Source: a virus. Taken from it: a DNA stretch of 34,288 bases. The position numbers were made by a program, and so were the translations under genes. Below, piece after piece: positions 7,918-22,632 of this stretch. The notes under the pieces were generated by a model that saw nothing but the letters and a program-made list of their open reading frames with translations, had not been told where the DNA came from and did not search any database. How positions within the stretch are numbered: position 1 is the first letter of the stretch; every line of letters begins with the position of its first letter. Location: positions 1 to 34,288 of IMG/VR virus record IMGVR_UViG_3300042879_005258, one strand, 5' to 3'.

Positions 7918-8343
7918 TCAGGCGGCGGGAGCGGGGACGACCAGCTTGCGGAGTTCATCCAACTCGCGCTGAAGCCGGGCATTCTCATCCATCACGCGGG
8001 CAAGTTCGCTAGATTTAGACGCTTTCGCTTGCGCTTTCGTCGGAATGCGTCCGGACGCGTCAAAACCATCATTGTCCGTAATGCGGAATTTTGTGATATT
8101 GAAGCAAGGATCACTTGCGGCCATGGACAACACTTTCCGATTGAGCTGGTAAAACTCAATCTTAGCTTCGTTGTAGATCTTCATTTGCGCTTTGCGCGTG
8201 TCTTTATCGGCAACATTTATACCATTCAACTCAGCCCACTTCTTAAAGGGCAAAGCTCCCCCGCTCGCTTGGCGCAAGGGGTGGGCAACGATGGCATGAG
8301 TGATTTTATCCACGGAACGATTGGCTTGGACTAACGGTGTCAT
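7918..8343 (-). CDS. hypothetical protein with C-terminal coiled coil, 141 aa
   Basis: A 141-residue protein starting MTPLVQANRSVDKITHAIVA at ATG 8343. The first half contains PLRQASGGALPFKKWAELNGI. The end (SSELARVMDENARLQRELDELRKLVV, about residues 112-137) is a leucine-zipper-like coiled coil, suggesting dimerisation. No DNA-binding motif is certain. It is a monocistronic gene flanked by hairpins (7877-7890 after it, 8406-8443 before it) and sits at the edge of the large non-coding region, so a replication or regulatory role is possible. Confidence 0.65.
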   Translation of the reverse strand: MTPLVQANRSVDKITHAIVAHPLRQASGGALPFKKWAELNGINVADKDTRKAQMKIYNEAKIEFYQLNRKVLSMAASDPCFNITKFRITDNDGFDASGRIPTKAQAKASKSSELARVMDENARLQRELDELRKLVVPAPAA

Positions 8344-8405
8344 ATACAATTTCTTTCTATTTTGGATTGCTGTTTGTCTGTTGCCCGCTCATAGGAGAGG
8401 GAAAC

Positions 8406-8443
8406 AGACTACAGCAATCCCCTTTAGAGGGATTGCGTAGTCT
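8406..8443. repeat. long inverted repeat, 15-bp stem with one bulge
   Basis: AGACTAC + A + GCAATCCC pairs with GGGATTGC + GTAGTCT around a 7-base loop. All 15 pairs are Watson-Crick with a single bulged A at 8413. It lies 63 bases before the start of the 8343 gene on the minus strand, so it could be a 5' leader element, or part of a plus-strand RNA. Confidence 0.7.
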
Positions 8444-8848
8444 ATCGGCGGCGGAATATCTTTTGATCGCATAAAGCGAAGAATAAACGGCCGCACAAGT
8501 TTACCGCATAGCGCGGATTAGATAGCGGTTGAAGTTGAAACTAGCGTGTGGATTCGCTCCACACAGTTCTCGCGCGGGAGTGGCGAGACGATCACTTGAT
8601 GTTTCCAGTCGCGGCGGTGTAAATCGCTATGGCAATCCTTCGCTCGCGCTTTCGCGGTCGTGGCAAAGTTGAACTATTTTCCGGCATTTCATATCCCATC
8701 ACAGGGTGCCGTCTATTCGCGGGTTCCTTTCCGCCGCTTGTGTCATACGCTTGTCCGCGCTGCCCCGGCGAGGGGCGGCCCTTTAATCCTAGGCTAGAAA
8801 CCGCTTGCTAGGCGGCGGGCACTCATGCGGACGCATGAGATTGAAGCG

Positions 8849-8870
8849 GCGGGGGCGAGCCCCCGCTTTT
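8849..8870 (+). terminator. GC-rich hairpin followed by TTTT
   Basis: GCGGGGGC and GCCCCCGC form a stem (effectively 7 base pairs with a 4-base loop), followed immediately by TTTT on the plus strand. It has the shape of a rho-independent terminator with a short U-run and would end a plus-strand transcript of the gene-free stretch. Confidence 0.45.
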
Positions 8871-9229
8871 GCTTGTCGGCCCTTGCGAGCCCGAGCCGAT
8901 CGGCGCACCCCTTGCGGGGGCCGTCCAGTGCCTTGCCTTGCGGGAGGGGACTGGCGATCGACAAAAACCCCCGCCACCCTTCCCCAAATCCCTCTCCCCG
9001 ATAGTCTTGACGCGCGCGAGTAGCTATCGCGCGGGCGCACCACGCGGGTGGGGGTGGGGGTGGGCGTCGCACGCGCGCACACTATATATTGATAGGCAGA
9101 AAAAATTTTTTCCGAAAAAGTCGGGGTCCGGCAACCCTGTCGCCCTGCAGCCCAGCAACACCCAAACCCTACAGCCCGACAACCCCAACCCTCCAACGAT
9201 TAGGAATTGTCGAATAGATCAACTCACAC

Positions 9230-9245
9230 TTGACTTATAAGTCAA
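9230..9245. repeat. perfect 16-bp palindrome
   Basis: TTGACTTATAAGTCAA is a perfect palindrome in the gene-free region, the kind of site bound by a dimeric protein. A second short palindrome (TCGAATTCGA) follows about 20 bases later, and AACTGTCG/CGACAGTT lies at about 9290-9310. Confidence 0.7.
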
Positions 9246-9403
9246 AATCCAAACCCATCGAATTCGACGGAATTGGCAAGTCTGCTCTCAACTGTCGAAA
9301 TCCGACAGTTTCCGGCAGCCCTAACCGTATGCGGAGTGACGCGGAGAGCACGGCGATCTGCATACGAACAGGGAGTCAGGGTCGCAGGGCGGCGATCCGG
9401 CCG

Positions 9404-9424
9404 GTGGTGGTAGTGGTGGTAGTT
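9404..9424 (+). repeat. 21-bp GGT-rich direct repeat, copy A
   Basis: GTGGTGGTAGTGGTGGTAGT plus a final T. The same 21 bases recur exactly at 9493-9513, 89 bases downstream. Each unit is itself a tandem of GTGGTGGTA. An iteron-like element. Confidence 0.75.
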
Positions 9425-9454
9425 GGTGGTGGTTGTTTTCGACAACCACCACCA
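9424..9454. repeat. perfect 13-bp inverted repeat of GGT/ACC triplets
   Basis: TGGTGGTGGTTGT and ACAACCACCACCA form a perfect 13-base stem with a 5-base loop (TTTCG). It directly follows direct-repeat copy A and precedes an AT-rich stretch. Confidence 0.75.
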
Positions 9455-9492
9455 GAGTTAAGTCATTGATTTTTTGTATATCTATATTAGAA

Positions 9493-9513
9493 GTGGTGGT
9501 AGTGGTGGTAGTT
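9493..9513 (+). repeat. 21-bp GGT-rich direct repeat, copy B
   Basis: Exact second copy of the 9404-9424 repeat, placed at the edge of the AT-rich segment (TATATCTATATTAG before it, TTTTTAGTAAAATTAG after it). Confidence 0.75.
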
Positions 9514-9960
9514 TTTAGTAAAATTAGGGGGTAAATAGAGAAATAGAGATATGTCCGGCGGCCTCTCCCGCCCGTTTCGCCAAAACACGCGCTGGGCGGA
9601 GGAATTTGCCGAAAAACCACCACCACCACCACCATTTCTTTTTAGCTGCTCGCCTTCAGCCGCTTGCGTGGTGGGGGTAGGTTGTGGTGGTGGTCTGGTG
9701 GGGGTTGTTTTTCAAGAATCCGGCTGTTCTTATGCGTGCACTTATTGACTTTTAATGCGCTTTTTTCCGGAAATCCGCCCCGATCGGGCGTTCCCTCACC
9801 CCTGTCGCCCTGCAACAACCCGATCGGGTGTCTGGGCTGCAGGGTTGCAGGGTGAGTTTCACTGAAAACCCCGTTTTCACCCGCCGGTGAAATTGCCTTT
9901 CTTGTGAAAAACGCTACAGGTGATCCGAACCCTACCCTCGCCGGGTGTAGGGTGCAGCTC

Positions 9961-10009
9961 TGTTACAAAGACGCCCTGTTTTTTGTAACGGCTACCCGAC
10001 CTGTTACAA
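9961..10009. repeat. three TGTTACAA boxes spaced about 20 bp
   Basis: TGTTACAA at 9961-9968 and 10002-10009 on the plus strand, with TTGTAACG (inverted, 7 of 8 matches) at 9983-9990. The spacing of 22 and 19 bases puts them on one face of the helix, as for a cooperative binding protein. Confidence 0.55.
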
Positions 10010-10134
10010 TTTGCTGGACTCTTCGCCTGCTGTCCTACGATATGAAACGGTTTTCGGCGTCATCCCGAGAAAAAACCTCGCCGACGACCCGAAAACCGAC
10101 CGGAATGAACCGATTTTCTGTTTATCCCGCCGTT

Positions 10135-12297
10135 TTACGGCTTGGAGATCGCCCAAATGGTCTTCTTTGACCGGCTGTCCCTGCGACCCAGCCACGGGGC
10201 GACATTGCTCTTGTGGATCTGGGCGAGCCAGACGCCGAGTTGGACGGCACTCGCCCTGGTGGCGAAGAAATCGCGCCCGAGTCGGAGCAGATCGCCCGAG
10301 GTGCCTTCCCACTGGGTCGCCTTGTCGAGGAACATGGGGCTATCCTTCATGTGTCGCAGGGAGTCCAGGTCCTCCCGCAAGTGGGTGGCGGCGGCGAGGC
10401 TCTGGCTGTGGGCGAGAAGTTCGGGATGGTGGAAGGACTTCACCCCATACCTACTTTTCCCCGGCGCTGCCATGATGGACTTTGGGGGAGTCCAGTTCGA
10501 CAGCCAGCGAAGGAAGAAAGGAAGCTCGGCTTTGACCTTCGCCTCGATGATGTGGTTGGGCGGGAACTCGGGATACCATGATCCCAGCTTGAAGAGCATG
10601 AGTTTGTCGGTGATCGAATTGTCGGTCGTGGGGACAATGGATAGGGATTCCTCGTCCGTGTTGCAGGTCACGACTACCCGGCCCTGCCACGGGAGCTTGG
10701 TGGCGTCCTGGAATTTTGGGTGATACTGGATGTCGGTTTGGGCGACGACTTTTTTGACATTGGCCGAAAAGGTTTTCCGGCTGGTGCCGTCGATGGTCGC
10801 CATGCCGTCGTCCACGCTCCACACGCCGACCTCGACGAGTTCCTTGTTGAAGTCTCCGCCGCCGAGCAGGTATCCGCTCGCGTCGCTGTGGCCCCCGGCG
10901 ATCTGGCCCATGATGAAGGAGGAGAGGAAGGTCTTGCCCTGCCCGGCTTCGCCCGCGATGAAGACCATCTGCCCCGAGAGGAGCCGTCCCGCTCTGCCCG
11001 ATTCCCAGAATCTTTTTAACCAAGCAAGGAAGTAGGTGGATTGCCCGACGCCGTTGTCGTCCACGGCGTCGTCCCAGATGCCGGGGCTGATTAGAAATTT
11101 CTTGAGCCACGGGAAGTCGCCGTCCTCGGCGGCTGGCTCCATCATCCGGCGGTGGCCGATGTTGAGATACTTCATCCCGTTGAATTCGACGATCTCGACC
11201 GGGTTGTAGATGAACGGGGCGACATTCTGAACCCGTTTGGTCTGCTGGATCGCGACCATGGCCTTGTCCACCTCGCTGGCGGTGTCCTTGGTTCCGTTTT
11301 TGCTGGAGAGCCGGTAGAGGACCTTGAGGCGGCGACCCATCTCCTCGCTGACGAGGCGGCACCAGAGGTCGTTGTCCCTCACCCAGTATGCCTTGCCGTC
11401 ATACCAGAAGTCGGCAGCGGCGGCTCCGGTGCGCTCGGCCTCGTAGTCGGAGACGAATTTCTTGCCGAGAATCTCGACCCACGGGACGAAGGATTTGCCC
11501 GCGCGGTCGGAGAAACAGACGACACCGTGTTCGCCCAGCACCGCGCCGATGCGGTCGATACCGTCGTCGATCCAGAAGAGCGGGACGCGCAGCCCCTCCT
11601 GGATATTGCCCTGCAGCTTGCCGGGGAATTGTTTTTCGATCTCGGCGGCGATGCGCTCGTAGGGGATCGCGGTGGTATCAATTGATACCTTCTTGGCCTT
11701 GAGCGCGGATTCGGCGAGCCAGTGATGGACCGCATTACAGGAAATTGGGGTGGAGCCTGGGAACGCGCTCCATTCGTTGCCGATCTCGAAGACCTGGTTG
11801 CTCTTGAGAGAGGTCTCATCGAAGTGGGGGAGGAGTTTCTTGAGCCGGAGTTCCTTCGCCGCGTAACCCATGAAGGCTTCGTAGAGCGCCTTGTTGTCGA
11901 GCATGAGGGGCTCCTCGAACTCCCACACGAGCCGGATGCCGCCGCTGAAGGTGCGGGAGATCGCCGTGGGGGCGAGACCCATGGGGCTGTTGTCTTCGAC
12001 GAGTTTCTTGGCCTCTTCCAGCCCGACGACCGAGTCGTAGTCGGCAATGATGCCGTGTTGGTATTTCACCGGGTTGGTTTCGGAGACGCGCAGGCTCGGG
12101 GTGAGACCCTCGGCGAATGTGTAGAACACCCAGTCGGTGGTCGGCTTCGCGCACCATTCGCGGTATTTCTCCTTGTCGGCTCCGGCGGCGAGTCCTGGTC
12201 GGGCGGGGATGTCCGCCTCCCAAGGTTTGCCGCCCAGTTCAAAGGCGTCGTTGCTCCGGAGGTTCTTGATGGCGTGGTAGGCAGTCTGTTTTGGCAT
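10135..12297 (-). CDS. PrimPol-SF3 helicase replication protein, 720 aa
   Basis: A 720-residue primase-helicase. The N-terminal part has an archaeo-eukaryotic-primase-like motif IIADYD (Asp 86 and 88), followed by SGGIRLVWEF (118-127). The C-terminal part is an SF3/D5-type ATPase with Walker A GEAGQGKT (449-456), Walker B VWSVDDG (492-498) and a sensor-type VVVTCN. Such proteins prime and unwind DNA at phage and plasmid origins. Its gene is adjacent to the repeat-rich region at 8871-10134. The start at ATG 12297 is chosen because a conserved box (12296-12317) abuts it. The mRNA leader would then be only about five bases, so translation may be effectively leaderless. Confidence 0.85.
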   Translation of the reverse strand: MPKQTAYHAIKNLRSNDAFELGGKPWEADIPARPGLAAGADKEKYREWCAKPTTDWVFYTFAEGLTPSLRVSETNPVKYQHGIIADYDSVVGLEEAKKLVEDNSPMGLAPTAISRTFSGGIRLVWEFEEPLMLDNKALYEAFMGYAAKELRLKKLLPHFDETSLKSNQVFEIGNEWSAFPGSTPISCNAVHHWLAESALKAKKVSIDTTAIPYERIAAEIEKQFPGKLQGNIQEGLRVPLFWIDDGIDRIGAVLGEHGVVCFSDRAGKSFVPWVEILGKKFVSDYEAERTGAAAADFWYDGKAYWVRDNDLWCRLVSEEMGRRLKVLYRLSSKNGTKDTASEVDKAMVAIQQTKRVQNVAPFIYNPVEIVEFNGMKYLNIGHRRMMEPAAEDGDFPWLKKFLISPGIWDDAVDDNGVGQSTYFLAWLKRFWESGRAGRLLSGQMVFIAGEAGQGKTFLSSFIMGQIAGGHSDASGYLLGGGDFNKELVEVGVWSVDDGMATIDGTSRKTFSANVKKVVAQTDIQYHPKFQDATKLPWQGRVVVTCNTDEESLSIVPTTDNSITDKLMLFKLGSWYPEFPPNHIIEAKVKAELPFFLRWLSNWTPPKSIMAAPGKSRYGVKSFHHPELLAHSQSLAAATHLREDLDSLRHMKDSPMFLDKATQWEGTSGDLLRLGRDFFATRASAVQLGVWLAQIHKSNVAPWLGRRDSRSKKTIWAISKP

Positions 12298-12338: not shown

Positions 12339-12611
12339 TTACCGGTCGAGCTTCCAGAGGATCTGGAGCATGTCGCCGTAGGCGGAGTTGAATTCGTCTT
12401 CGACCGAGTCTTCGTCTGTTCCGTTTTTCAAGGCTTCGGCGATGGGGCTTTCGGGGTCGTCCTTGGCCCATTCGAAAAATATGGTTCGTCGCTCGACCCG
12501 GATCAGCACCGCCTCTTCGTGGGTGGACGGCATTCTGGAGTTCGATCCCAGATTCTTGAGAGCGTTGTGCTCCACCACAGCCCACTTCGACGCGTATTCT
12601 CCGATTGTCAT
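12339..12611 (-). CDS. hypothetical acidic protein, 90 aa
   Basis: A 90-residue protein (MTIGEYASKWAVVEHNALKN) starting at 12611 with ATGA overlap with the polymerase stop. The acidic C-terminal half (GTDEDSVEDEFNSAYGDMLQILWKL) could contact a basic partner. No recognised domain. Translational coupling to the polymerase suggests a replication accessory role, by position only. Confidence 0.65.
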   Translation of the reverse strand: MTIGEYASKWAVVEHNALKNLGSNSRMPSTHEEAVLIRVERRTIFFEWAKDDPESPIAEALKNGTDEDSVEDEFNSAYGDMLQILWKLDR

Positions 12612-14359
12612 TTTCCGTATTTCTCCTCGATGCCGCCTTCCGCCGAGAGGGGGAGGCCGGGCATCCAGTCCGGTGTCTCGGACATGATTTCGACAATCCG
12701 GCGGCGTGTCTGTTCAGCCTCTTCCTCGCGGGCGAGACACACTACCTCATCGTGGACGGAAAACAAAATCTGGAAGCCCTCGGCCTCGATGTTGAGGAGC
12801 TTTTCTGCGAAGACTTCGCGGGCCGTGGCCTGGGTGAGGTTCTCGACGAGGAGCCCATACCAATACTTGGCGCGCATCATTTTTCCGTTGCGGCAAGTGA
12901 CGGCGGTGAGTCCGCCGCCCGCGTTGCTGACCGACCAGTAGGTGATCTCGCGGCCGCTCGGGAGTTCCATGGAAAAGTCGGCTCCGCGCATGGCGTGGGA
13001 TTTCATCGCCTTCTCCAGTTGCTTCCAGAGCGCGGTGAGCTTCGTGTTTTTGCTTCGGAAAAGGTTTGTGAGCCGCTCGGCCTCGCTGGCAGCGGTTCCC
13101 GAGACCGTCGAGAATTTCGTCGCCGACATTCCATAGCCGAGGCCGAGGTTGAGCTGTTTAACCATGAGGCGCTTTGCGGGGTCCTTCCGGAGCGACTCTT
13201 CGCCGTCGTGCAGCCCCCAAGCTCTGGCCTGAGCGTCGTAGAGGTCGTCGGATTTTCCGATGAAGTCGAGAAGCACCTCGTCGCCACACAAGAAGGCGAG
13301 GCAGCGGGGCTCGATTTGCGAAAGATCGACCGCCACGATCCTGTAACCCTGCGGCGCGCGGATCAGGCCGCGAAGGTCCACTCCATAGAGTTCCTTGCGG
13401 TTCAGGTTTTGAAGATTGAGTCCGGCATCTCCGCTCCAGCGGCCCGTGGAGCCCGCGCCAAAATATTTTAGAGAAAATGGCATCCAGCCGTCGGGCTTCG
13501 TGCGGTTGATAAAAGTGCATACTTTTTTCAACAACATGTTGCATCTTCTCCAGTCCCTCATCGCCCCGACCCAAGGATAACTTTCGCCGTATTTGTCCTC
13601 CCACTTAATGCAATCTTCGCTATCCACTGCGAGGGATTTAGGTGGCTCGATGTTTACCTTACGGCATTCCTCGGCGAGGGCTTTGGGAGAGAGGATTTTC
13701 GCGTCGTCCTCTTTCGCCCACGGGATTTTCTGCTCGGCTTCCCAGATGAGCCCTTCGAGGTGGCGTTTGTATTCGTGGGCTTTTTCGAGGTCCACGGGCA
13801 CGCCGCGCATTCCGATCTCGCGGGTTTGGCGGGAGAGTTCGCGTTCGTGCCACGGCCATTTGTCGCCGTGTTCCTGCCACAGGCGAAGGGTCATCTCGGC
13901 GTCCTTGATCGCGTAGTCGGTGACCTCTTTTTTGAATTCCTCGGACATGGCGGACCACTGCTTGCCCTTCATGTTGGCGCGGGTGCGCTTGTCCACCTCG
14001 ACACCCAGCAGGCTTTGCGAAGCGCCCGCGAGAGAGCCTGGGCGGCCCATGTAGCGGGACATGTCGAGGACATCGAAGACCTCCTTGAATCCGAGGTCGG
14101 CGGGGATGTTGCCCTTCTCCCCTTCGGCTGCGAGCACTGTGAGGTCGTAGGCGGCGTTCGCCATGATGATTGTTTTGCCGCGCAGGAGGCCCCAGTCGAA
14201 ATCGCGTGGGTTCCCGGCATAGCGCGTGCCGTCCGATCCCGCGATCGTGAGCATGTAGTTTTCCGAAGCCCTCGCGTATTTCCACGCCCCCATTTCGACG
14301 ACGCTTATTTGGGCGTCGTAATAGTTTTCAGTATCGAGAGCGTAGATAGTGTCCGGCAT
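12608..14359 (-). CDS. family A DNA polymerase with 3'-5' exonuclease, 583 aa
   Basis: A 583-residue family A polymerase. The exonuclease motifs are DTE (Asp 9, Glu 11), Asp 72 in NAAYDL, and YAIKD (Tyr 149, Asp 153). The polymerase motifs are A, DLSQIEPR (345-352); B, in the segment KRLMVKQLNLGLGYG (396-410); and C, VHDE near residue 535. The length fits phage enzymes lacking a 5' nuclease domain. It synthesises phage DNA and proofreads. The start at ATG 14359 overlaps the upstream 101-residue gene by 55 bases; its DxE motif lies at the very N-terminus, leaving no room for a later start. Confidence 0.92.
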   Translation of the reverse strand: MPDTIYALDTENYYDAQISVVEMGAWKYARASENYMLTIAGSDGTRYAGNPRDFDWGLLRGKTIIMANAAYDLTVLAAEGEKGNIPADLGFKEVFDVLDMSRYMGRPGSLAGASQSLLGVEVDKRTRANMKGKQWSAMSEEFKKEVTDYAIKDAEMTLRLWQEHGDKWPWHERELSRQTREIGMRGVPVDLEKAHEYKRHLEGLIWEAEQKIPWAKEDDAKILSPKALAEECRKVNIEPPKSLAVDSEDCIKWEDKYGESYPWVGAMRDWRRCNMLLKKVCTFINRTKPDGWMPFSLKYFGAGSTGRWSGDAGLNLQNLNRKELYGVDLRGLIRAPQGYRIVAVDLSQIEPRCLAFLCGDEVLLDFIGKSDDLYDAQARAWGLHDGEESLRKDPAKRLMVKQLNLGLGYGMSATKFSTVSGTAASEAERLTNLFRSKNTKLTALWKQLEKAMKSHAMRGADFSMELPSGREITYWSVSNAGGGLTAVTCRNGKMMRAKYWYGLLVENLTQATAREVFAEKLLNIEAEGFQILFSVHDEVVCLAREEEAEQTRRRIVEIMSETPDWMPGLPLSAEGGIEEKYGK

Positions 14360-19688: not shown

Positions 19689-19930
19689 TCTGGGGACTTG
19701 GTCCAAGTGGTGTTCGAGTAAGCCATCCAAGATGTGGCGCTGTTGGGTTTTGTGGGCACGATGTCCGGACTGTATTTTTCCGGGAAATACCTGATGGAAT
19801 CGACTATTGAACTGATCCATACTTTCAGCCGCGTGGCCAGCGATAGCCGGACCCACTGGACTTGGAATGATGGGATGGATTGAGCTTTTGGTTTTCTTGC
19901 CCGGCGGGCTTTGGGTTTTGGTGTTTTCAT
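19685..19930 (-). CDS. small basic hypothetical protein, 81 aa
   Basis: An 81-residue frame starting MKTPKPKARRARKPKAQSIP at 19930 through an ATGA overlap with the RuvC-like gene. The N-terminal 16 residues are a strongly basic tail; the remainder (WVRLSLATRLKVWISSIVDSIRYF) is amphipathic. It overlaps an alternative frame that I reject because it lacks coupling. Function unknown. Confidence 0.5.
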   Translation of the reverse strand: MKTPKPKARRARKPKAQSIPSFQVQWVRLSLATRLKVWISSIVDSIRYFPEKYSPDIVPTKPNSATSWMAYSNTTWTKSPE

Positions 19931-20394
19931 TTTTTGCGTTCCTGGAGATCAGCGTGGCGGAAAATCAGTGCCGCGTCGGCGTTGGCCAGGGTGATTTTTT
20001 GGTTCGGATAGAGGCGCTGGGCCTCGGATTTGAGCTTGTTCTTCCATTCGGTTTTGGAAGTTCCCTTGCTGGTGCCGAGCCCGAGGGCCTTCTGCCATGT
20101 CTGCGGGGACACCAGCACCAGTTGGAATTTGAGCGCCATGAGCATTCCTTTCAGGACGCCCCAGTTCGACGCGTAGCTTGCCATGGCAGAGGAAGGCATG
20201 GGGCTGCCCGTGAATTTCACGAGGTTTTCCAAGTAGCAGATCCGCTCGTCCGCGTTTGCCTGCGCCACCATCTCCAATAGCAGGAGCAGATCGCCTTCCG
20301 TGTCCGGCAGCGAGCCGGTGAGCATGGTGCCGTTGTCGAAGCGGGCCATGAATCCTCCGTTGGATCCTGGGTCGATTCCGATCAATGTTGTCAT
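19927..20394 (-). CDS. RuvC-like Holliday junction resolvase, 155 aa
   Basis: A 155-residue RNase H-fold protein. It starts MTTLIGIDPGSNGGFMARFD, the RuvC GIDPGxxxxG signature with the first catalytic Asp at residue 8. It continues with YLENLV (acidic residue near 70), VSPQTWQKALGL and a C-terminal ANADAALIF carrying a further Asp. It would cut branched DNA during replication or before packaging. It lies at the end of the recombination block. The start codon directly follows a conserved box (20393-20414), so a transcript from it would have an almost absent 5' leader. The start also follows the preceding stop by one base. Confidence 0.85.
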   Translation of the reverse strand: MTTLIGIDPGSNGGFMARFDNGTMLTGSLPDTEGDLLLLLEMVAQANADERICYLENLVKFTGSPMPSSAMASYASNWGVLKGMLMALKFQLVLVSPQTWQKALGLGTSKGTSKTEWKNKLKSEAQRLYPNQKITLANADAALIFRHADLQERKK

Positions 20395-21346: not shown

Positions 21347-22513
21347 CTATTTTTTCGGTCGGATTTCGAACCACTTTTTGGCTTCGCTCTCCAAGGCGTT
21401 CGCCTTGTAGTTTTCCTGAACTTGCTGCGGCGAGTTGCCGCATTGTTCCGCCACTTTCGCCGCGTCGCGCAGGATTGCCATTTGGTAAGTGATGTAGGAG
21501 TGCCGAAGTCCGTTGTGGACCCACGGCACGCCGGATTTCTCTGACAACCTGGCGGTCATTTTGTTCGAAGTTTTTGCGGGGCAGATCGGACCTTTCTTTT
21601 CGCCTTTGTAGCTGTTGAGCCATTCGACGAGGTTGTCCGGCATATGTGCCACGCGGCGGCGTTTCGTTTTGGTGTGGCGCGCGTCGAGCACGATGACCTT
21701 CTCCTGGAAATTGATGTCCTGCCATTCGATAGAGGTCGCCTCGGAAGCCCGCGTCCCCACAAAGGCGCAAACCGCAAGGTAAGGCATCCAGCCCGTCTCG
21801 ACATTGTCGAAAAGGGTTTGGAGTTGCTTGGGCGTGAAAATGCCCGGCGAGCCCGACGACTCCACTTTGTAGGTGGTGGCCTTTTCGGCGGGGTTCGCCA
21901 TGTTGCTCGGGAGATAGTCTTTTTGGATCGCCCAGTTGAACAGGCGCGTTATCGAAATTTTGTGGTTGTTGCGGGTGCGGTTCGACCAGTCTTTCGGGCC
22001 TTGCAGGTAGCGGTCGATGTCTGTGGCGCGGATCGCTTCGAGCGGCAGCCGAACTTCGTTGCTGAACCGTGTCAGGTGTGACTTCACGGTTTGAATGTCG
22101 CGAAGCCGGTTTCCTGAAGTTTCCAAATTTTTGAGGTAGCCCTCGACGATTTTTTCCAGCGATGCGCTGCTGACGACTTTCCGCGCCCCTCCGTGATGAA
22201 GGAGGTAGTAGTCCACGGCGTCCATCAGTGACACTCCGTTCAACTTTTGCTCGCAGGCTTCGTAGTAAAGCGCCTTTTGGGATGTAACCTTTGCGGCTAG
22301 CGGTTCCCCTTTGGCGAACTGCTCCTGAATCAGCGCGGCATGATCATGCGCTGCCGACTCGTCCGAAAAGCTCATCCTTTGACGCCGCTTCCCAACCGAC
22401 CACGCGACGACGTAGACGGTCCACTTGTCGCGGTTCACATTTTTGTAGATGTGGACTTTTCCCCAGCGGCTGACGATGTGCATGGGGTAGTCCTCTGTTT
22501 TCTGTTTTGGCAT
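21347..22513 (-). CDS. int: tyrosine recombinase / integrase, 388 aa
   Basis: A 388-residue phage-type integrase. An arm-binding-like N-terminus (HIYKNVNRDKWTVYVVAW) and a SAM-like core-binding domain (about 95-215) precede the catalytic domain. That domain shows Arg 255 in GTRASEATSIEW, Lys in TKTKRRR (281-287), NGLRHS with Arg 337, GNS (359-361) and Tyr 369 in ENYK. Asn replaces His in both the HxxR and GHS positions; NGLRHS occurs in a subgroup of integrases. It integrates the phage at attB using the attP just upstream (22633-22927). ATG 22513 is chosen, as an upstream extension has no support. This gene makes the element temperate. Confidence 0.9.
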   Translation of the reverse strand: MPKQKTEDYPMHIVSRWGKVHIYKNVNRDKWTVYVVAWSVGKRRQRMSFSDESAAHDHAALIQEQFAKGEPLAAKVTSQKALYYEACEQKLNGVSLMDAVDYYLLHHGGARKVVSSASLEKIVEGYLKNLETSGNRLRDIQTVKSHLTRFSNEVRLPLEAIRATDIDRYLQGPKDWSNRTRNNHKISITRLFNWAIQKDYLPSNMANPAEKATTYKVESSGSPGIFTPKQLQTLFDNVETGWMPYLAVCAFVGTRASEATSIEWQDINFQEKVIVLDARHTKTKRRRVAHMPDNLVEWLNSYKGEKKGPICPAKTSNKMTARLSEKSGVPWVHNGLRHSYITYQMAILRDAAKVAEQCGNSPQQVQENYKANALESEAKKWFEIRPKK

Positions 22514-22632
22514 GGTTCTTTTCTGTGCTAGTATTGACACGCATGACAGATTTTTGTTCACCCGCCGCTAGGAAAAGTTTATCAACCCGTAGGCCAACCC
22601 GCAGGCTCTTTTGCGTAAGTCATTGATGATAG

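Follow-up and report, generated by a model that had tools for sequence, protein, structure and literature searches.

The gene-free stretch at positions 8344-10134 of an uncultured virus raises the question of which function it serves beside a primase-helicase gene, its right part (8871-10134) having been proposed as a replication origin in an earlier note. The window, i.e. the whole stretch of DNA analysed here, covers a complete IMG/VR record of 34,288 bases to which no taxonomy is assigned, and appears to represent all or much of a tailed temperate phage. Its minus strand encodes an integrase (21347-22561), a PolA-type polymerase (12608-14359), a helicase-exonuclease, a dNMP kinase and the primase-helicase (10135-12297), as well as a small gene with a C-terminal coiled-coil-like stretch (7918-8343) downstream of the gene-free stretch; a terminase large subunit and tail-type genes are located on the plus strand from 22967. 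No DNA similar to the window was found in isolate phages or plasmids, and the primary sequence of the primase-helicase had no match among isolate phage or plasmid records. The only hint at a host, which suggests Verrucomicrobiota, comes from prophages that have the replication module in common with the window.

Coding character was assessed with a hexamer model for which 15 confident genes of the window served as training set; these genes themselves scored +0.13 to +0.75 in a leave-one-out analysis. The 21 ORFs of at least 40 amino acids inside 8344-10170 ranged from -0.69 to +0.07 per codon. The stretch is hence gene-free, as had been claimed, without any ORF of coding character in 8344-10134; a hidden gene was ruled out, as all ORFs lacked a coding signal, and the homologous genes that the earlier note had said would speak against an origin were not found. 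Further, the stretch contains no tRNA and no Rfam family at the gathering threshold, and a structured-RNA covariance match for its left part was also absent. A DnaA-dependent, oriC-like origin was rejected, since the single TTWTNCACA match in 34 kb (9903-9911) compares with a chance expectation of 1.1 and forms no cluster. The GC-skew profile, proposed earlier as a check, did not switch sign at the repeats, which counts against an origin. The stretch falls into a repeat module (~9400-9710) and a left part that is poor in repeats.

Repeat module and its putative initiator

In the module, opposed sets of TGGTGGT iterons, arranged in tandem pairs 9 bp apart, enclose an AT-rich box. The triplet arrays, direct repeat, inverted repeat and AT-rich interval described in the earlier note were all recovered: TGGTGGT density in the window is maximal at 9401, the exact 21-bp direct repeat occupies 9404-9424 and 9493-9513, the perfect 13-bp inverted repeat lies at 9424-9436/9442-9454 with a loop of 5, and at 27% GC the AT-rich interval (9465-9524) is surpassed in AT content by only one other 60-mer of the 34 kb. 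When the region was dinucleotide-shuffled 200 times, direct repeats reached at most 17 (21 observed) and hairpins at most 11 (13 observed).

Read along the minus strand, on which all strand-specific features are annotated, the module starts with an outer imperfect iteron set (CCCCCACC / CCACCACCACAACC; 9669-9705), at whose place the L002 virus (see below) has CATCACCCCACCAAACCATCCCCCACC, followed by iteron set 1 (AAATGGTGGTGGTGGTGGTGGTTTTT; 9611-9637) and a CTCTATTTCTCTATTTACCCCC box (9527-9548). Iteron set 2 (9493-9513) is inverted, with two iterons 9 bp apart that make up the first copy of the 21-bp repeat; the AT-rich box (9465-9524) is a candidate melting site. Next come ATCAATGACTTAA (9458-9470), conserved as ATCAACGACTTAA in L002 and as ATGAACGACTTAA in the more distant L072, iteron set 3 (9424-9454), which is the perfect 13-bp hairpin, and iteron set 4 (9404-9424), again inverted with two iterons 9 bp apart, which is the second copy of the 21-bp repeat.

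Two other repeated words were considered. The TGTTACAA boxes counted earlier among the origin features are found at positions 9961 and 10002, on either side of an inverted TTGTAAC (9983); the boxes were missing from the relatives checked and were rejected as conserved origin boxes. Words of the CCCTGNNRCCCTG type occur at 390, 4604, 7086, 9135, 9377, 9800 and 9840 of the window and in related viruses too, and two of them (9134-9155 and 9832-9853) flank the module as an inverted pair of 22 nt. They were rejected as origin-specific, being scattered across the left part of the phage as well.

The origin proposal itself has to be narrowed from 8871-10134 to the core at ~9400-9710, whose layout, position and 9-bp pairing recur in divergent relatives. 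Its adjacency to the primase-helicase gene stands with one qualification: as the gene reads leftwards, the region is at its 3' end. The module is located ~430-730 bp 3' of the stop codon, and its core begins ~500 bp past the stop and not directly after it, which counts against an origin.

The primase-helicase is predicted to combine an archaeo-eukaryotic (AEP-like) primase, a superfamily-3 (SF3) helicase with DUF5906 and a C-terminal winged helix, and is the probable initiator; its start is probably the ATG at about 12297 and not the TTG at 12696. A full-length structure model (mean pLDDT 75) had its best fold matches with the NrS-1 polymerase CTR, pox D5/E5, ASFV PrimPol and PriRep1 with dsDNA. 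The putative primase assignment rests on an invariant DYD motif and these fold matches, and no TOPRIM match was found with Pfam in the protein, whose fold matches are of AEP type instead. The C-terminal 114 residues (pLDDT 82) form helices followed by a beta-hairpin, with weak fold matches (E 0.01-0.2), mostly to winged helices, and this beta-hairpin is the wing that varies among relatives. DUF5906, the fold matches and the winged-helix-like C-terminus, with its weak E-values, are those of an initiator helicase with a C-terminal DNA-binding domain. On the basis of the model and of the covariation of the equivalent segment in related prophages, the wing (LGRRDSRSKKTIWAI; codons at 10147-10191, minus strand) is the likely iteron-reading element.

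Recurrence of the module and covariation with the wing

The only close relatives in IMG/VR were L002, L003 and L005, which represent one virus in three samples (primase 85% identical), and L004, whose contig stops 57 bases past the primase. In L002, the order and spacing of the module are kept, with an identical CTCTATTTCTCTATT box, and the iteron letters are changed (GGTGATGG). The layout 3' of a homologous initiator, with other iteron letters, was observed in one other virus, two distant relatives and many Verrucomicrobiota prophage-like loci. For instance, L072 (38% primase identity) carries CTCCACCATCTCCACC, ATGAACGACTTAA and GGGGTGGAGATG 3' of its primase, and in L085, which stems from an Acidobacteriaceae MAG, GGTGGTGGTGGC is accompanied by an AT-rich stretch, CTACCACCACC and GGTGGTGGTAG. 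The distance to the next iteron set is 46-48 bp in the window, L002 and L072, with 9 bp within pairs. When 8-mers that recur in both orientations were scanned for blindly, the primase 3' flank ranked first in these same three genomes. Exact module patterns were found in viral contigs only in the L002 virus. Marine phage relatives (L007-L081; 33-40% primase identity), whose wing RSxGxGGGKxW is nearly constant, lack the module, an absence that counts against an origin.

Homologous initiators in chromosomes were retrieved by a DUF5906 search over a Verrucomicrobiota sample. The closest of them showed opposed iterons around an AT-rich box soon past the stop, in the 3' flank. At the primase loci of this group, 16 of 23 3' flanks beat all 100 shuffles, compared to none of the 5' flanks; this excess of repeats in the 3' flank and its absence from the 5' flank correspond to an origin directly 3' of the initiator, as in PICIs and SaPIs. 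Repeats were weak in three group members (L132, L135 and L144) and absent from two (L129 and L131). Universal occurrence in DUF5906 elements was rejected: of the 27 loci in a broader DUF5906 set, only 7 had a significant 3' flank, and the marine phages are, as mentioned, without the module. The distance to the next set is 34 bp in L133, L141, L160 and L164, again with 9 bp within pairs. L141 resides in a prophage with the order exonuclease, PolA, primase-helicase and module, the terminase being located further on. In prophage relatives, unrelated genes occupy the place of the small gene 7918-8343; the genes downstream vary between lineages, and the module therefore follows the initiator. Separately, regularly spaced repeats resembling TGTTTCGACTTCCCCCCC...GAGAGGTCGGACATAAT were noticed ~190 bases past the primase stop in L148, which may be a CRISPR-like array beside the element.

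This constancy bears on an alternative to the origin, in which the repeats control transcription, either as an array of operators or a promoter region serving the leftward genes or as a site through which the primase operon regulates itself. We consider this unlikely: the module stays 3' of the initiator although the downstream genes change, whereas a regulator site would normally be expected 5' of the genes it controls, and primase 5' flanks are without such repeats. The region does split the leftward gene block in two, a promoter-like block adjoins the module, and iteron initiators often regulate transcription as well. However, an AT-rich box between opposed iteron sets is the published layout of PICI origins.

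Whether iterons change together with the initiator was analysed in 12 non-redundant elements of the L141 subfamily, i.e. in related prophages and not in the window's own lineage. Their layout is fixed, with iterons GCGTCAT, GCGTCAG, TGTCAT type, GTGACGTT, CTGACGT or GTGACA; these word classes were named after inspection of the data, the correlation itself being calculated from k-mer counts. Iteron similarity correlated with identity in the C-terminal 45 residues of the initiator (r=0.69; 0.69 as partial correlation controlled for the remaining residues; permutation p=0.0002), whereas those remaining residues showed no correlation (r=0.04). The 14-residue wing alone gave r=0.66 (p=0.0005), compared to 0.14 for the preceding helix. 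Third codon positions gave 0.16 inside the wing and r=0.41 (p=0.003) in the last 75 codons outside it. As the latter value indicates, exchange of the gene end along with its flank contributes, and the wing-iteron correlation may in part stem from it. A 5'-flank control was not significant; it was performed with all 6-mers, since 5' flanks are without repeated 6-mers.

Wings of the form QRR[HQ]HATRIWDI accompany GCGTCAT, QGRRH[TA]TRVWII accompanies GCGTCAG, and R[TN]G[AT][KR]R goes with the TGTCAT type. L141 and L142, from one genome and 91% identical overall, differ in both wing and iterons. Because iteron similarity follows the C-terminal 45 residues, chiefly the wing, and not the remaining protein, the iterons are most likely read by the initiator, probably through the wing. 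The genome in question (G089) harbours four homologous primase-helicase elements (L137, L141, L142 and L144), each with different origin iterons.

We tentatively propose that the wing and the adjacent iterons could form an exchangeable specificity cassette in temperate phages of Verrucomicrobiota and relatives, whose joint change would insulate the replication of co-resident prophages. If true, this would resemble plasmid incompatibility groups, but within a 14-residue hairpin and an origin of ~200 bp. In these elements, a single fold and a single layout are combined with six or more iteron words and matching wing residues, and one genome alone provides four elements with four words; this natural series suits direct tests of the protein-DNA code of an SF3 initiator.

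Taken together, the core at ~9400-9710 is very probably the replication origin of the phage, most likely read by the primase-helicase. The direct grounds are layout, position, conservation, absence of genes, the fold class of the initiator and the co-change of iterons and wing in related prophages. In the mechanism that we infer for binding, melting, priming and firing direction, the primase-helicase (10135-12297, minus strand) would bind the opposed TGGTGGT iterons via its C-terminal winged helix, with helicase rings probably assembled on both sides of the AT-rich box. The box between the iteron sets would be opened, primers would be started, possibly at GTG words inside the iterons, and the phage's PolA-type polymerase (12608-14359) would elongate them. 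The iterons of the window contain GTGG, and NrS-1 PrimPol primes at GTG, GTGG or GTGA (PMC8718748); the iterons could therefore double as primer start sites, although such priming would not be general, because GCGTCAT-type iterons are without GTG.

The left part of the stretch

The left part (8344-9120) is not needed for the origin model and probably constitutes a promoter and a long leader for leftward genes. At its right end, a predicted promoter-like block (9029-9120, minus strand) with an A/T-tract and TATAGTG is 78% identical to positions 9086-9177 of L002. It is followed by the ORF-free leader of the small gene (8344-9028, minus strand), the ORF-free run from block to small gene being ~690-700 nt in both the window and L002. 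Leader homology between the two is weak, above mononucleotide shuffles, and starts in the conserved block. Just upstream of the small gene lies a long imperfect hairpin (8364-8421, minus strand); by eye and by folding, the arms GGATTGCTGTTTGTCTG, GACTACAGCAATCCC and GGGATTGCGTAGTC in 8364-8450 allow two mutually exclusive hairpins, in an attenuator-like manner.

With the leader segment folding better than shuffles (z -3.7 and -3.2; only two sequences are available), the whole stretch might be taken for a structured non-coding RNA, or else for a partition (centromere-like), packaging or recombination site, short-repeat arrays being known at such sites too. However, the complementary strand folds equally well (-4.4), Rfam offers no match, none of the genes of the window was recognised as a partition gene, the integrase and terminase genes are far off, and the prophage relatives have the module but not the leader. 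Such a site or RNA is extremely improbable.

Elsewhere in the phage, a dispersed element of ~20 bp, GGTGTAATATCCAAGTGACA, follows gene direction, with leftward copies at 251, 4571, 6726, 12297, 16157, 17426, 20394, 21277 and 22934 and rightward copies at about 27934 and 29620. Three copies end right at an ATG (the primase at 12297, ORF 19927-20394, and 27953), and the element looks like a phage-wide promoter or a near-leaderless start signal.

Comparison with known replication systems

The best fold match of the initiator is the NrS-1 primase-polymerase (PMC7102993, PMC8718748), whose priming words occur in the window iterons; however, the NrS-1 recognition sites are described as two single 8-nt copies in the genome centre and not as iteron sets. 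The alpha protein of P4, with ori and crr, is likewise a winged-helix primase-helicase that binds short origin repeats, according to the summary in PMC4234260, but has a TOPRIM-type primase and a two-site arrangement, in contrast to the AEP-type fold and the one compact module of the window.

The pRN1 protein ORF904 and, by prediction, that of Bordetella phage BIP-1 are AEP-SF3-winged-helix proteins with a stem-loop 3' of the gene (PMC4234260). The window's initiator, judged by its DYD motif and fold matches, would share with ORF904 the combination of AEP primase, SF3 helicase and winged helix in one protein, together with an essential structure 3' of the gene. The BIP-1 protein shows only weak DUF5906 similarity, and a profile comparison with the window primase did not reach significance. 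The region could be an origin in which a long cruciform or stem-loop matters and not sequence-specific iterons: stem letters would be free to vary, and the arms of a perfect 24-bp inverted repeat in L002, separated by 95 nt, resemble the 21-nt stem and 58-nt loop that pRN1 requires 3' of its AEP-SF3 protein (PMC4234260). We regard this as very unlikely, given that the arms are split into tandem copies spaced by 9 bp, in three or four sets and not one stem, that those of the window are imperfectly paired, and that the letters co-vary with the wing of the DNA-binding domain. pRN1 is described as being without iterons (PMC4234260), whereas the window has several tandem iteron sets and not a single large stem-loop. 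In BIP-1 itself (L098 1120-1240), the stem comprises TTTGCCTCG twice vs. its inverse around TACCCCATTTTTT (TTTGCCTCGTTTGCCTCG vs. its inverse), and can be read as opposed iterons.

In SCCmec, the repeats of a putative origin lie immediately downstream of the gene for Cch2 and are bound by the C-terminal domain of this helicase (PMC7581432). Cch2 resembles the window system in its D5/Primase_Cterm-type helicase and in the position of its short repeats, but SCCmec has only three direct-repeat iterons, separate primase proteins and no phage.

In the pri-rep-ori modules of PICIs and SaPIs (SaPIs, EcCICFT073), the origin follows rep on its 3' side and has iterons that flank an AT-rich region (PMC6092414). 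As proposed here, the origin is immediately 3' of the gene for a hexameric-type helicase initiator, sometimes primase-fused, whose C-terminal domain reads the origin, a property that is predicted for the window. The iteron words of PICIs are, however, unrelated to those of the window, and PICIs are satellites without full virion genes, whereas the window carries a terminase large subunit, tail-type genes including tail-fibre-like ones, and its own PolA-type DNA polymerase. As it sits in complete phages, we treat the module as a variant that would work like the PICI module rather than as a PICI. The origins of uncultured phages have rarely been mapped; in this case, the sequence points to a very probable origin and names its probable reader, in a layout that was described for phage-satellite islands and is now found in complete bacterial viruses.
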